DNA of 64,000 nucleotides from Halorubrum yunnanense (GTDB lineage Archaea > Halobacteriota > Halobacteria > Halobacteriales > Haloferacaceae): contig NZ_JAODIX010000001.1 in assembly GCF_026586675.1 (NCBI RefSeq), forward strand, positions 1-64,000, in the 5' to 3' direction. Position numbers and translations under genes: made by a program. Below are positions 1-49,619 of the stretch, piece by piece (within the stretch, counting starts at the first letter, position 1; the number at the start of each line of letters is the position of its first letter). A model generated the notes under the pieces. It did no database searches, was not told the DNA's origin, and worked only from the letters and a program-made list of their open reading frames with translations.

Positions 1-66
1 TTGATGAACCGAATATCTGGAACTATCTTTGTCCGTAATTACAGGTAAAAACTAACGCACGACCGT
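1..66. other. Window edge, no gene seen
   Basis: This stretch is AT-richer than the rest and lies just before the first repeat element. I see no reading frame and no RNA gene in it. It may be the end of an intergenic region that continues outside the window. Confidence 0.4.
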
Positions 67-390
67 ATCAAAGGGGCAGCCGCGAGGACCGCGCAGGCGA
101 CGTAAGCACTGCAGGGAGTGAGCGAAGCGAACGACCGAAGCGCGCAGCGAGCGTGCGCGGTCCTCGCGGCTGGGGCGTTGGAGGTGTTCACAGACGATCT
201 GTCGGCAACCGTTTATAAGCGAGCGGCTGGGGCGTTGGAGGTGTTCACAGACGATCTGTCGGCAACCGTTTATAAGCGAGCGGCTGGGGCGTTGGAGGTG
301 TTCACCGCCAATTCGACCTCATCTGTTTATAAATAAACGATTGAGACCGCAGGATCGCTCAAGAAACCGCCGAGAACTATTTATAAAAGA
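67..390. repeat. Composite repeat element, copy 1 (hairpin plus about 57-bp units)
   Basis: A 19-bp perfect inverted repeat (arms 77-95 and 154-172) encloses a 58-base loop. It is followed by units starting at 166, 223 and 280 (period 57); the first two are identical. Each unit opens with GCGGCTGGGG, carries GGAGGTGTTCAC and closes with a TTTATAA box. A degenerate fourth unit ends with a TTTATAAAAG box near 380. The same structure recurs near 26.4 and 37.5 kb. Because 57 is divisible by 3 the units can be read as a repeated 19-residue peptide, but a 56-bp and a 54-bp unit at copy 2 break that frame, so I treat the element as non-coding. It sits at the 3' end of arlJ. Its function is unknown; a structured RNA, tandem promoters or a mobile repeat are all possible. 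Confidence 0.8.
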
Positions 391-13824: not shown

Positions 13825-15087
13825 TTAGAGGCGGACCGCTTCGCCTTCCTCGCTGAAGAGGTCGGGCGCGGTCAGTTCGACCTGCGTCGTCGCGCCGGCC
13901 GGCGAGACGATGTCGAGCGTCGCATCGTCGCCCTCGCCGAACGCCACAGAACCGTCAGCGAACGCACCGGAAGACGGGTTCAGTAGGATCGTGTACTGGT
14001 TCTGGTCGTCGAGGACGGGGTCGGCGAGGAAGCCTCCGTCGGAGCCGACCGCAAACTCACCGGGATTGAGGTTGGAAACCTGACTGAAACCAAGAGAAGC
14101 ATCAGCCTCGGTACTCACTGCGGAACCAACTGTGGTTCCAGGCAGTGTACTACCCTCATTAAGCTCGACTTTTATCTGATCACCATCAGCAAAGTCGACT
14201 CCAGTGAGATCAATAGTTTCGATCACATTGTCTTCACCTGAGTTAACAGATACCGAATCAATCAGAGTGGTGGTTCCACCGTCCGTGGACCCTTCATCGA
14301 CGTACACGAGTAGGTTGGTTGCCGTAGTCGAACTCGTAGTTCCGTAAGCGACTTCGATGCTAGTGGTATCTGTGCGAATGGTTGGCTGAATCGCGACTTC
14401 ATCGCTCGTAACACCAGTTGCAGTCACACCATCTAGTTTGGTGTCAACAACCGTCGCTCCGGTAGAAGAGGTACCAGAACCATCGAGTTGTGCCTCGATA
14501 TTGTTCCCTACCGTAAGGTCTTCAGTGGGAATAGCAACTTCATTAATTTCGTTTTCATCGAGGCTCTCGATGTCTACTGTCGTGATACTAGTACCAGCTA
14601 CCGTGTCCTGAATAGTCAGCTGAGTAATATCCTCTGAGTTGATTTCACCAAGCCGAATCTGGACACTTTCAGCATCGTCAGGGATCTGCTGTTGGATGGT
14701 CACACCGTCGGTGCTCGGATTTTCGGGAACATTGAACGCCCGATCAGTGAACACAAGATTCTCCTGTCCGCCAGGCCCAACAGCCTGAATCGTCGTATCG
14801 GTCAGATCGATGTCATCAGCACCGGGCGCACCGGTGGTCGTCACGCGGATCTCGCTCAGCGTCGAAGTGTCACCGCTGACGATCCCGACGGAACTCGTCA
14901 CCTCGATCCGCTCGGACACGAGGTCCGTACTCTCTTCGCCGGTCGATTCCGCCTGCGACTGGAGGAACCCAGCCGTGTTGATCAGGACGCCCGCGGCGAT
15001 GGCGGCGACAAGCACCATCGCGATGAACACGATGAGCGTGCCGATACCGACCTGACCGCGGTCGTCGTTGGTAATGAACTCGAACAT
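13825..15087 (-). CDS. arlB: Archaellin (archaeal flagellin), large paralog
   Basis: Archaellins are the filament subunits, processed by a prepilin-peptidase-like enzyme after a short class III signal. The 420-residue protein has the signal region with [24 protein letters not shown], where cleavage is expected at RGQ|VGIG, and the hydrophobic alpha1 helix, then a long beta-rich domain. Its middle (about 14050-14720) is clearly AT-richer than the surrounding DNA and rich in Thr/Ser, the pattern of the surface-exposed variable domain. I find no N-X-S/T sequon in the whole protein. It starts two bases after the smaller archaellin gene ends, so both are one operon. About 200 residues is usual; this one is double length. 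Confidence 0.95.
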
Positions 15088-15089
15088 TG

Positions 15090-15704
15090 TTACAGCCTCA
15101 CCGAGTCGCCGTCATCGCCGACCAGCGTGGTCGGGACGCGGATCTCAGTCGTCGTCGATGCGCCGGAAGCAGTCGTGAACGTCACCGTCAGGGAGTCGCC
15201 CTCAGTGAGCGCGTAGCCGCTGGCGTCTTCGAACGTATCACTCGCCTCGAGGTTGACGACGACCTCGGCGCGGTCACTGTTGTCCGTCAGAACGGGGCTG
15301 TCGCCAGTTTTGGTGAAGATGTCGTTGGTCGCCGGCGGGTCCTCGTCGAGCTGGAACGTCTCCTGCCCGGAGGTCCCGACCAGTTCGACAGTCACTTCGT
15401 CGAGGTCGATGTTGTCCGCGCCGGGCGCCGACGCGACGACGAACTCGAGCGAGCCGATGCCGCGCTCGCTGGTGCCGGCGACGTTGTCGGCGATGTCACC
15501 GGACTGGCTCACGACTTGGAGCCGCTCGCTCACCTGCGCTGTACTTTCCTCGCCCGTTGCTTCAGCCTGCGTCTGGAGGAACCCGGCCGTGTTGATCAGG
15601 ACGCCGGCGGCGATCGCCGCCACCAGCACCATCGCGATGAACACGATGAGGGTCCCGATCCCCACTTGACCGCGCTCTTCCTCGTCCAGTATGGTTTCGA
15701 ACAT
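15090..15704 (-). CDS. arlB: Archaellin, small paralog
   Basis: A 204-residue archaellin with nearly the same N-terminus as the downstream paralog: the stretch from GQVGIG through NTAGFLQ is identical and the next residues differ in few places. The rest is shorter and less diverged from a typical archaellin. No N-X-S/T sequon is present. It is the promoter-proximal gene of the pair, with a TATA box (CTTAAGTAG, minus strand) at about 15765-15773 and a leader near 35-40 bases. The near-identical 5' ends make gene conversion between the two copies possible. Confidence 0.95.
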
Positions 15705-26189: not shown

Positions 26190-26350
26190 CGGGCTCTTTT
26201 AAATGGTACCGTGCGGTCGGCGCGCGCCTCCGAGCGCCCTGACAAGGGCGCGAGGAGCGCGTGCGAGGGAGGCGGTGGGCCGGCGCGGCTCCGCCCGCGC
26301 CGGGCCGTCCGCCGAGGTTGGGGAGGCGTGAGGTGCGGTGCCGTGTGGGG
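26190..26350. repeat. GC-rich upstream module of composite repeat, copy 2
   Basis: After metX comes a short hairpin (GCGCCCT-GACA-AGGGCGC, 26232-26249), a longer GC hairpin around 26275-26304 (right arm CCGCGCCGG) and then GAGG(T/C)TGGGGAGGCGTGAGG leading into CTCAAAGGGGCAGC. The last two stretches also occur at copy 3 (37448-37510) but not at copy 1. Confidence 0.65.
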
Positions 26351-26676
26351 GGCTCAAAGGGGCAGCTGCGAGGGCCGCGGAGGCGACGTAAGCACCGCAG
26401 GAAGCGAACGAAGTGAGCGACTGAGGAGCGCAGCGAGCGTGCGCGGCCCTCGCAGCTGGGGCTTTGAAGCTGTTCAGTATCAGTCCATCAGCAACCATTT
26501 ATAAGCGAGCGGCTGGGGCCTTGAAGCTGTTCACTCTCACCCCATCGGCAACCGTTTATAAGCGAGCGGCTGGGGATTTGGAGGTGTTCACGACCGATCC
26601 TCTGTCAACGATGATAAACGAGCGGGTGAGGATTTGGGGGTGTCTACCGCGCTTCTCACGACCATTTATAAGCGAT
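26351..26676. repeat. Composite repeat element, copy 2
   Basis: Hairpin arms 26363-26379 and 26442-26458 (17 bp, perfect) enclose a loop related to copy 1. Units follow at 26452, 26509, 26566 (56 bp) and 26622 (54 bp). The arms differ from copy 1 at two positions, with matching changes on the other side. Unit ends carry TTTATAAG; unit 3 has the diverged ATGATAAACG. Confidence 0.8.
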
Positions 26677-26813
26677 CGAGCGAGCCCTCGGACCGGCCCA
26701 CCGTTGATCCGTCCTCGACGACGCACGACCGTTCGACGCGGTCCCTTCGCCGTTTTATTCTCACGATCAATCATGGCAATGTTCATGATTCTCGACTTCG
26801 TGGTGTGTGAGGT
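26677..26813 (+). promoter_or_regulatory. Acyl-CoA synthetase upstream region with inverted repeat
   Basis: No gene is seen between the repeat and the ATG at 26814. AATCATG (26769-26775) and CATGATT (26784-26790) form a perfect 7-bp inverted repeat with an 8-base spacer, covering the position expected for the TATA box. It is a candidate operator. Confidence 0.45.
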
Positions 26814-37319: not shown

Positions 37320-37496
37320 GACTATTTAAAATATACGCGTGGTATCGATGGCTATTTATAAATGAACGAGGCGGTGGCGCGTGCCGATGAGCGGCCGGCA
37401 GGCCGCGAGTCGCACGCGCGAGGGAGGAGCGAGCGAAGCGAGCGACGAGGCTGGGGAGGCGTGAGGTTGTGCGGTTGCGGTGCGGTCGGGGCGGGA
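37320..37496. repeat. Upstream module of composite repeat, copy 3
   Basis: From a TATTTATAAATGAACG box near 37354 through GGCCGGCAGGCCGCGAG to GAGGCTGGGGAGGCGTGAGG, this matches the shared parts of copy 2. A run of GAGCGAAGCGAGCGA is included. No gene is seen. Confidence 0.6.
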
Positions 37497-37686
37497 CTCA
37501 AAGGGGCAGCCGCGAGGGCGAAGACGCGCGACGCAAGGACCGCAAGGAGGGAGCGGCAGCGACCGACTGAGGACCGCAGCGAGCGCATCGAGTCCTCGCG
37601 GCTGGGGCTTTGGAGGCGTTCACCGTCGATCCACTGTCGGCCAATTATAAGCGAGCGGCTGGGGCTTTGGAGGCGTTCACCGCAGA
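37497..37686. repeat. Composite repeat element, copy 3
   Basis: Hairpin arms 37507-37517 and 37594-37604 (11 bp) enclose a loop that keeps GACGCAAGGACCGCA and CGCAGCGAGCG. Units start at 37598 and 37655. The second stops matching after TTCACCGCAGA (37676-37686), where AT-rich DNA begins. This is the place where the surface-protein segment seems to have been inserted. Confidence 0.75.
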
Positions 37687-37770: not shown

Positions 37771-38994
37771 ATGCTGGCAAAATGTAACCGTACGATGGCG
37801 CTGTCATTATCCGGAAATCAGCATGTCATAGAACGAGTAGTGACGCAGATCATCATATTAGCCGCCGTCATCTCGCTGGTGGCGATTACAGCTTCTGGTG
37901 GCGCAGTGGCCCATGCGGATGGCAACGGACTGACCGTACATAATCAGACGGTCCCTCTAGACCAGCACGGCGAGATACATACAGTTACAATCGACAAGGC
38001 AAGCGCAGACACGGATTTTTACGTTGACCTTCACACCGAGAATGGGACAATTAATACTACGCAAACCTTTGAGGCCGGGACAACGCGGGAGGACTTCGAA
38101 GTAACACTTTCCCCGACTATCAAGTCGGACACTGAGGTAACTGTCGCGACCCATGCAGCAAACGGAACCGAACTCGCAAGTGAGACTATTGCGGTCGACA
38201 CAATTGAGGCTCCCACAGTATCGTTCTCAGATCAAGTTCACCAACTTGATGTTCATGACGAAATCCATGATATAACTGTCGACACGGCTGCGGCCAATGA
38301 GGACTATTATGTCGACGTACACACGGCAGACAGGACTATCAATACCACGCAGACGTTCAACGGTGGCACGGCACAGACTGATCTTGAATTGACACTGAAT
38401 CCGACGCTTACTGAAACCACAAACGTGACCGCCGCAGTCCACGCAGCCAACGGTACCGAACTCGCCGCTGAGACCGCGACGGTAGCCACCGCCGATGTGC
38501 AGTTCTCCGAGCAAAGTCACGAACTTGACGAACACGGTGAAATACATCAGATCGATGTCGAACAAGTGGCCGGTGACGTCCCTTACTACGTTGACGTACA
38601 TACAGCCAACGGGACTATCAACACAACACGAACATTTGAGGCCGGCACGACTGTCGAAAATCTTGAACTGACCCTCTCCCCGACGATAACCTCGGACACC
38701 AACGTGACGGTCGCACTCCATACCGAAGACGGCGCCGAGATCGCCGCCAGCACTGCGACGGTTACCGTAATGTCGGATAATACGGCTACCGACGAGACGA
38801 CGGATGAGAGTGGTTCCGACGAGACGACGGATGAGAGTGGTTCCGACGAGACGACAGATGAGAGTGGTTCCGACGAGACGACGGATGAGAGTGGTTCCGA
38901 CGAAACGGCGACGAGTGAAAGTACCCCTGGCTTCGGAGTTATTATCGCTATCGTCGCATTACTCGGTGCCGCCCTCCTCGGGCGTCAAAGATAG
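37771..38994 (+). CDS. PGF-CTERM surface protein with three DUF7282-like repeats
   Basis: 407 residues with a signal peptide (about 22-48, IIILAAVISLVAITASGGA), three homologous domains (about 52-145, 148-240 and 243-330; each with YYVD(V/L)HT(A/E)(D/N)(G/R)TINTT(Q/R)TF) full of N-X-T sequons, four exact DETTDESGS repeats (27-bp DNA repeat, 38791-38898), and the C-terminal sorting signal PGFGVIIAIVALLGAALLGRQR, split as PGF, helix and Arg. This marks a substrate of archaeosortase A, lipid-anchored in the S-layer. The gene is AT-richer than its neighbours and lies between halves of a repeat unit, suggesting transfer. Confidence 0.85.
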   Translation: MLAKCNRTMALSLSGNQHVIERVVTQIIILAAVISLVAITASGGAVAHADGNGLTVHNQTVPLDQHGEIHTVTIDKASADTDFYVDLHTENGTINTTQTFEAGTTREDFEVTLSPTIKSDTEVTVATHAANGTELASETIAVDTIEAPTVSFSDQVHQLDVHDEIHDITVDTAAANEDYYVDVHTADRTINTTQTFNGGTAQTDLELTLNPTLTETTNVTAAVHAANGTELAAETATVATADVQFSEQSHELDEHGEIHQIDVEQVAGDVPYYVDVHTANGTINTTRTFEAGTTVENLELTLSPTITSDTNVTVALHTEDGAEIAASTATVTVMSDNTATDETTDESGSDETTDESGSDETTDESGSDETTDESGSDETATSESTPGFGVIIAIVALLGAALLGRQR

Positions 38995-48941: not shown

Positions 48942-49619
48942 TTACGCCTCGTCGACCTCGGTCGCTTCGTCGCCGTCGAGCTCCTCGACGGGCGCGCCCG
49001 GCGCGTTCGATTTCACGCTGTTGAGCCCCTGTTTCGCCTTCTGCTTTGAGGCGTACCCCTGCCCGCCGTCGGCGATGATGTTGCTGTTGTCGTGGCGGAG
49101 CCGCCAGCGGTACTTCTCGGCGTTGTCCCTGAACAGCTCGAAGGTGGCGTCGCTCCCGCCCGCCGCCGGCGGCTCCTCGTCGCGGTCGACGTCGATCACG
49201 TACGCGCCCGGCGCGTTCCGCTGGACGCTCTCGATCCCCGACTTCGCGTCCCGCTTGTCCGCGTACCCCTCGCTGCCGTCGGCGACGATGTTCCCGTTGT
49301 CGTGGACGAGCCGCCAGCGCCACTGGTCGGCGCTGTCGGCGTACAGCTCGAAGGTCGCCTTGCTCGCGGCGGCGTCGGTGTCGACCGCGGCCTCCGCCTC
49401 GTCGAACTCCACCTCTACCTCGAAGTGGACGGTGCCGTCTTCGCGTTCGAGCTCGATCTCGACCTCGGACTCGGCGGCGGGGTCGACCGTCACCGTCCCG
49501 GCGTCGTCGACCGGGACCGGCTCGCCGCGGCCGAGGGCCTCCGCGATGCGGCGGAAGTAGGTGGCCAACGCCTGTCGGCTTCGCGACTGCTTCGACTCGT
49601 GGATCGGTTCGTTGGGCAT
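48942..49619 (-). CDS. Amphi-Trp plus double HVO_2922/DUF1508-type protein
   Basis: 225 residues. An N-terminal amphi-Trp-like helix pair (HESKQSRSRQALATYFRRIAEAL) and beta strands are followed by two YegP-like repeats: ATFELYADSADQWRWRLVHDNGNIVADGS and ATFELFRDNAEKYRWRLRHDNSNIIADGG (described by their ends), each ending SNAPGA or RNAPGA. Such repeats occur in haloarchaeal stress-linked proteins. Role unknown. Confidence 0.85.
   Translation of the reverse strand: MPNEPIHESKQSRSRQALATYFRRIAEALGRGEPVPVDDAGTVTVDPAAESEVEIELEREDGTVHFEVEVEFDEAEAAVDTDAAASKATFELYADSADQWRWRLVHDNGNIVADGSEGYADKRDAKSGIESVQRNAPGAYVIDVDRDEEPPAAGGSDATFELFRDNAEKYRWRLRHDNSNIIADGGQGYASKQKAKQGLNSVKSNAPGAPVEELDGDEATEVDEA

Follow-up and report, generated by a model that had tools for sequence, protein, structure and literature searches.

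The window analysed here is a 64,000-nt stretch of the Halorubrum yunnanense genome (contig C1, positions 1 to 64,000, forward strand). It contains three related hairpins, at 77-172, 26363-26458 and 37507-37604, all of which lie where the initial annotation of the sequence had placed them, and a covariance-model search of the 64-kb window yields just these three matches. The arms read CAGCCGCGAGGACCGCGCA / TGCGCGGTCCTCGCGGCTG in copy 1 (A) and CAGCTGCGAGGGCCGCG / CGCGGCCCTCGCAGCTG in copy 2 (B); as had been claimed, both differences between these copies are compensated in the opposite arm, and the loop words GACGYAAG and CGCAGCGAGCG are present in all three copies. The assigned span was too narrow: each hairpin is the 3′ hairpin (P3) of a longer modular element, the similarity between copies starts at an AT-rich motif and stops with the last tandem tail unit, and the region 67-390 delimited at copy 1 corresponds to P3 and the tail. 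Copy A lacks the 5′ part because the contig begins there. The features of the three copies are as follows.

68..181, + strand: copy A, hairpin P3 (reported as 77-172); covariance-model match C1:64-195, 138.9 bits
166..330, + strand: copy A, tandem tail, three units of about 57 nt repeating GCGGCTGGGGCKTTGGAGGTGTTCAC ... TTTATAAGCGAGC
26192..26212, + strand: copy B, AT-rich 5′ flank (CTCTTTTAAAT), directly 3′ of the stop codon of a MetX-like gene
26213..26270, + strand: copy B, 5′ domain and hairpin P1 with tandem G-A pairs
26271..26313, + strand: copy B, exchangeable hairpin P2
26314..26353, + strand: copy B, conserved GAGGTTGGGGAGGCGTGAGG and G-rich linker
26354..26467, + strand: copy B, hairpin P3 with base TCAAAG/CTTTGA, invariant GGG/GGG internal loop, covarying stem, tandem G-A pairs and GAA triloop
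26450..26701, + strand: copy B, tandem tail of about four 57-nt units that diverge from one another and contain TTTATAA motifs
37352..37370, + strand: copy C, 5′ flank TATTTATAAATGAACGAG
37371..37426, + strand: copy C, 5′ domain and hairpin P1
37427..37446, + strand: copy C, short P2 module (GAGCGAGCGAAGCGAGCGAC type)
37447..37497, + strand: copy C, GAGGCTGGGGAGGCGTGAGG and G-rich linker
37498..37614, + strand: copy C, hairpin P3; covariance-model match, 128.7 bits
37600..37690, + strand: copy C, tandem tail, one to two units

Several other features of the window deserve mention. The left end of copy A (window 1-68) and locus L029 (contig C22) share an unusual junction in which CGCACGACCGTAT, directly before CAAAGGGG, replaces the usual 5′ domain; both copies are near contig ends, and the junction may reflect either an insertion or a break in the assembly. 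A predicted 407-aa surface-type protein, which begins about 80 nt after copy C, carries a four-fold 27-nt tandem repeat (TDESGSDET; 38774-38908) near its C-terminus. Diverged direct repeats at 48967-49373 (197 nt, 75% identity) and 14900-15680 (167 nt, 82%) are probably duplicated coding domains.

The anatomy of the element was derived from alignments of copies taken from single genomes and from different genomes in the genus. From 5′ to 3′, it consists of the AT-rich motif (usually TTTATAAAT, located approximately 5-15 nt 5′ of GCGGTGGCGCG), P1, the exchangeable P2, a G-rich segment, P3, and one to four tandem units of about 57 nt. GCGGTGGCGCG is accompanied by hairpin P1, the helix of which changes in concert (CTGC/GCAG, CTCC/GGAG, CGAC/GTCG) around tandem G-A, and P2 and P3 are separated by GAGGCTGGGGAGGYGTGAGG and a G-rich linker. 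P3, a hairpin of about 115 nt with the conserved flank GGGACTSAAAGGGGC, has the base CTCAAAG/CTTTGGAG, followed by a GGG/GGG internal loop that is the same in nearly all of the 44 copies compared, a covarying stem, and a tip in which tandem G-A pairs lie between two-base helices and a three-base loop forms the end. The loops, the positions of the tandem G-A pairs and the GGG/GGG loop are conserved across genera. The tail units end in GCGGCTGGGGCTTTGGAGGTGTTCACC and are accompanied by a site-specific spacer and TTTATAA. A coding role of the tail was rejected: its 57-nt period is in frame with an open reading frame at copy A, but the frame is lost in copies B and C. The likeness of GGGATTGAAAG to CRISPR repeats and that of GGAGGTG to the Shine-Dalgarno motif are probably coincidental.

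Double-hairpin inserts are also found within copies of the element. A separate insert of this kind, TCGCCGGC..GCCGGCTGCCAGAG..CTCGCTGG, occurs at several positions. The second double-hairpin module, TCGCC-GGC..GCC-GGCTGCCAGAG-..-CTCGCTGG, has variable perfect stems (loci L064, L068, L071 and L073 at the metX site, and loci of genome G007). Its insertion points lie between P1 and P2, inside P3 and inside P1, and, going by their description, it resembles the SMR-A repeats of Haloquadratum.

The genome of H. yunnanense contains at least about 110 copies of the element (116 matches at E <= 0.001 among 150 candidates scored, the last few being fragments). DNA similarity reveals it in 33 of the 34 other genomes of the genus, and five genomes of the genus searched singly gave 10 to 102 matches; the lowest number, 10, is that of G019, and no match was found in G034, compared with 58 to 116 in the other members searched singly. 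Within the class Halobacteria, the element is present in 221 of 292 genomes and 62 of 77 genera, with 91-100 matches in representatives of three distant genera (94 in G254 and 91 in G058). By contrast, in a sample of 148 genomes from the phylum, the 18 with a match all belong to the order of the window and none of the approximately 120 genomes outside this order gave one. A pattern scan of named genomes returned, among the matches listed, only Halobacteria, including Haloarcula, Natrinema, Halosimplex, Haloparvum, Halonotius and Halobaculum, and a copy of Haloarcula rara shows the complete P1-P2-GGTTGGGGAG-P3 order. Across the class, P3 is found singly, as a head-to-head doublet in 18 of 80 cases and within a full composite in 8 of 80. 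Searches of plasmid records gave partial matches with the window copy and 32 records with a Haloarcula copy; phage records gave no match. The absence of a named family holds for Rfam 15, where there was no match at the gathering level and nothing credible below it (E up to 5), and for the literature searched.

According to the gene calls made for this analysis, on which the intergenic and orientation counts are based, all 42 copies in 778 kb of the H. yunnanense genome are intergenic. When these 778 kb are pooled with 1.2 Mb of G007 (90 intergenic copies and 729 other gaps), convergent gaps are enriched for the element (27/90 versus 69/729, odds ratio 4.1, p 4e-7) and divergent gaps are depleted (14/90 versus 263/729, odds ratio 0.33, p 5e-5); the copies tend to lie at gene ends and to be absent from divergent promoter regions. 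Nearly all copies in five genomes of the genus sit on the main chromosome, which is unusual for mobile repeats: with contigs serving as a proxy for replicons, and for the matches listed (a few weak ones fall outside these figures), none of the G007 copies and one of 58 in G029 lie off the largest contig, and all those of G018, G019 and G022 map to C1. Large non-mobilizable plasmids (megaplasmids) do carry the hairpin in other genera.

The proposal that the pairing is under selection receives strong support from the covariation across many copies. In 44 aligned copies of P3, 97.4% of the cells are paired (87.6 in shuffled alignments), double changes affect 20 of 39 pairs, with 154 double-change cells as against 34 in the shuffles, and the covariation score is 0.317 compared with 0.132 for shuffled alignments and 0.03-0.06 (maximum 0.061) for slid versions; P1 scores 0.442 versus 0.170. 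The predicted fold of copy 2 has an energy of -69.2 kcal/mol as RNA (shuffled mean -45.5, z -6.7) and -39.4 as DNA (z -6.0), and in both chemistries the drawn strand folds better than the other one. The mismatches are also asymmetric: wobble (G-T) pairs outnumber A-C pairs 130:26 on the drawn strand in 84 copies from two species of the genus, a count that leaves out columns with wobble as the commonest pair. Counted directly in anchored stems, the ratio is 34:6 within the genus and 13:3 outside it, and an independent class-wide set (83 copies, 75 distinct stems, 92% Watson-Crick pairs) gave 24:4, although all these counts are drawn from related sequences and are not phylogenetically independent. 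Both a cruciform and arm-to-arm copying are strand-symmetric, so that this asymmetry is unexpected from either, and the excess of wobble on one strand implies selection on one folded strand, RNA or single-stranded DNA (ssDNA). Folding of the drawn strand is thus under selection, and the double-stranded cruciform that had been offered as one interpretation of the hairpins is disfavoured, as is an origin of the pattern by arm-to-arm copying alone.

Comparison with G007 bears on the history of the copies. For 24 copies of the H. yunnanense genome with syntenic flanks in G007 (mostly 85-94% identical), the element is kept at 16 sites, in the same orientation at all 16. Nevertheless, the copy at the orthologous site ranks only 8th to 41st in similarity among the approximately 41 G007 copies (14 measurable pairs), which is about the level of chance; thus, address and orientation are inherited and the content appears to be exchanged. 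Wherever the modules of an orthologous pair can be read, its two copies carry different P2 hairpins, while the same P2 cassettes turn up again at sites unrelated to one another. About a dozen species have the element at the metX site (window 26190-26813), with differing modules, and a few have none or remnants. In this one species pair, the comparison shows that modules and variable stems differ freely, being drawn from a genome-wide pool, with addresses and orientations conserved. No recent near-identical full-length copy was found, the best-scoring full-length paralogue pairs being 83-87% identical, so that there was no sign of recent transposition. Neither a cleanly empty site nor a target duplication came to light among the syntenic sites; those that lack the element differ over the whole intergenic gap.

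The folded molecule under selection could be a structured non-coding RNA, as the initial annotation had suggested, or an mRNA-end element, produced from its own promoter or by read-through and then protein-bound or processed. Covariation above background in P3 and P1, together with an excess of wobble pairs, is what RNA selection gives; the drawn strand folds strongly as RNA, TTTATAA motifs are found in the tail and the 5′ flank, and the tandem PyGAPu internal loops are common RNA motifs. However, of the copies between tandemly arranged genes, 22 have the sense and 27 the antisense orientation, so that folding is independent of neighbouring transcription. The TATA-like motif located 5-15 nt before P1 is too close for an RNA that contains P1, which argues against a dedicated promoter; no promoter at usable spacing was found at the 5′ flanks of the copies, and the spacer of head-to-head copies in another genus is GC-rich and without TATA. 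Apical loops, moreover, are mostly GNA triloops, and the GNRA and UNCG tetraloops are almost absent: in P3, 81 of 105 apical loops are triloops, 57 of these GNA, with no GNRA and no UNCG, and the same tip motif, mostly with GNA loops, recurs throughout the class. On G-C stems, GNA and GNNA loops form extraordinarily stable DNA mini-hairpins (PMC4686876). Nonetheless, GNA triloops are also found in RNA and possibly were inherited rather than selected, which may count against a DNA interpretation. Loop types, orientation and promoter spacing jointly lean to ssDNA, and the element more likely acts as folded ssDNA than as RNA; an RNA or mRNA-end element is a possible but not a probable explanation.

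We tentatively prefer, at slightly less than an even chance, the interpretation that these are haloarchaea-wide modular intergenic hairpin repeats of the REP/BIME kind that fold as ssDNA and exchange their content between fixed sites. The selected molecule would be mainly ssDNA, exposed in replication, recombination or rare mobilisation and snapping into GNA-capped hairpins; exchange between copies, by ectopic gene conversion or templated replacement, would refresh the content, and the family would survive as a non-autonomous repeat of long standing in the chromosome, either tolerated at gene ends or domesticated there. The retention of site and orientation under changing content would also be compatible with a protein-binding or topological site in chromosome structure, the address of which is kept by selection, as would the enrichment at convergent gene pairs, the near-exclusive location on the main chromosome in five genomes of the genus and the near-invariant GGG/GGG loop, which perhaps forms an intermolecular G-quadruplex in molar potassium; a topological role involving gyrase has been proposed for BIMEs. 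We nevertheless consider such a site unlikely, given that the strand asymmetry suggests folding of a single strand and not binding of the duplex, that the positions in G007 are randomly spaced, unrelated to strand arcs and show no orientation to replication, and that other genera have megaplasmid copies. Neutral transposon relics, with arms kept complementary by template switching (quasipalindrome correction) and no selection on structure, could explain why modules shuffle and why stems that are almost unique to each copy still consist largely of Watson-Crick pairs, but this process is strand-symmetric and should yield equal numbers of G-T and A-C mismatches, contrary to those observed, and the conservation of loops, G-A positions and GGG/GGG across genera also speaks against it; we disfavour it as very improbable. 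Still less credence is due to a non-autonomous element derived from IS200/IS605 (PATE) or a REPIN served by a Y1 transposase, despite the strand-specific hairpins, the lack of terminal inverted repeats and the hairpins within hairpins shared with PATEs and SMRs (PMC3119063). Two P3 matches were found around 20 Y1 loci, neither at the transposase, and two strong ones around 20 TnpB loci; P3 was not found as the end of TnpA or TnpB elements. One of the latter lies at a site where G007 has the element with a shorter interval; in H. yunnanense, a TnpB-type gene is beside the element here (C1:108026-108668), which suggests that the gene inserted next to an existing copy. Furthermore, PF01797 (Y1 transposase) is absent from G254 and G058, two high-copy genomes outside the genus, and no mobilising enzyme can accordingly be named. 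An origin from IS605/PATE elements or RAYT-linked repeats is thus not supported.

A stronger version of the preferred ssDNA interpretation, and an unlikely one in our estimate, is a class-wide system in which the hairpin content of about a hundred fixed addresses is continually rewritten from a shared pool by a dedicated and as yet undescribed exchange machinery. Such putative machinery might, for example, recognise GNA-capped, G-A-paired ssDNA hairpins or, in molar potassium, join copies via their G tracts. Bacteria are well known to harbour dispersed palindromic repeats, and we found no such family described for a whole archaeal class in the literature searched. It is unusual for address and orientation to stay fixed while the content turns over completely and one folded strand is under selection, and with this combination the old question of the purpose of REP-like repeats becomes testable in genetically tractable haloarchaea. 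The case also carries the caution that strong covariation by itself is no proof of RNA.

The family apparently represents a previously undescribed set of non-coding intergenic hairpin repeats that spans the haloarchaea. BOX of Streptococcus and ERIC of enterobacteria are likewise modular and intergenic, with inserts that vary and with base pairing and positions that are conserved; the present element, which is likened to them by arrangement and not by sequence, is archaeal rather than bacterial and exchanges modules between fixed sites. With Rfam structured RNA families it shares compensatory changes and wobble pairs, whereas its copy number and orientation are unlike those of an RNA gene. The PATEs and SMRs of Haloquadratum walsbyi are likewise haloarchaeal, transposase-free palindromic repeats with small inserted hairpins (SMR-A), and are characterized by strand-specific hairpins, the lack of terminal inverted repeats and hairpins inserted into hairpins (PMC3119063). 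The element resembles PATEs in having hairpins near its ends without terminal inverted repeats, but the near-terminal palindromes that PATEs share with IS605 transposons were not found here, and no clear counterpart of their strain-specific insertions was seen among the syntenic sites compared. The RepRanger survey of REPs included no haloarchaeon (PMC12306157). With REP, BIME and REPIN sequences, the element shares its status as a high-copy intergenic palindromic repeat (about a hundred or more hairpins per genome), enrichment at gene ends, one distinguished strand, mosaic composites and head-to-head doublets. It differs from REPs in its longer hairpin, flanked by GGGACTSAAAGGGGC where a REP has a GTAG/GTGG-type tag beside a hairpin of 20-40 nt, in its tandem G-A pairs, GGG/GGG loop, variable stems, additional P1 and P2 modules and 57-nt tail, in being archaeal, and in requiring no RAYT-type gene. 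By analogy, then, the element reads as a REP/BIME-like, or BOX/ERIC-like, repeat in how it would work.
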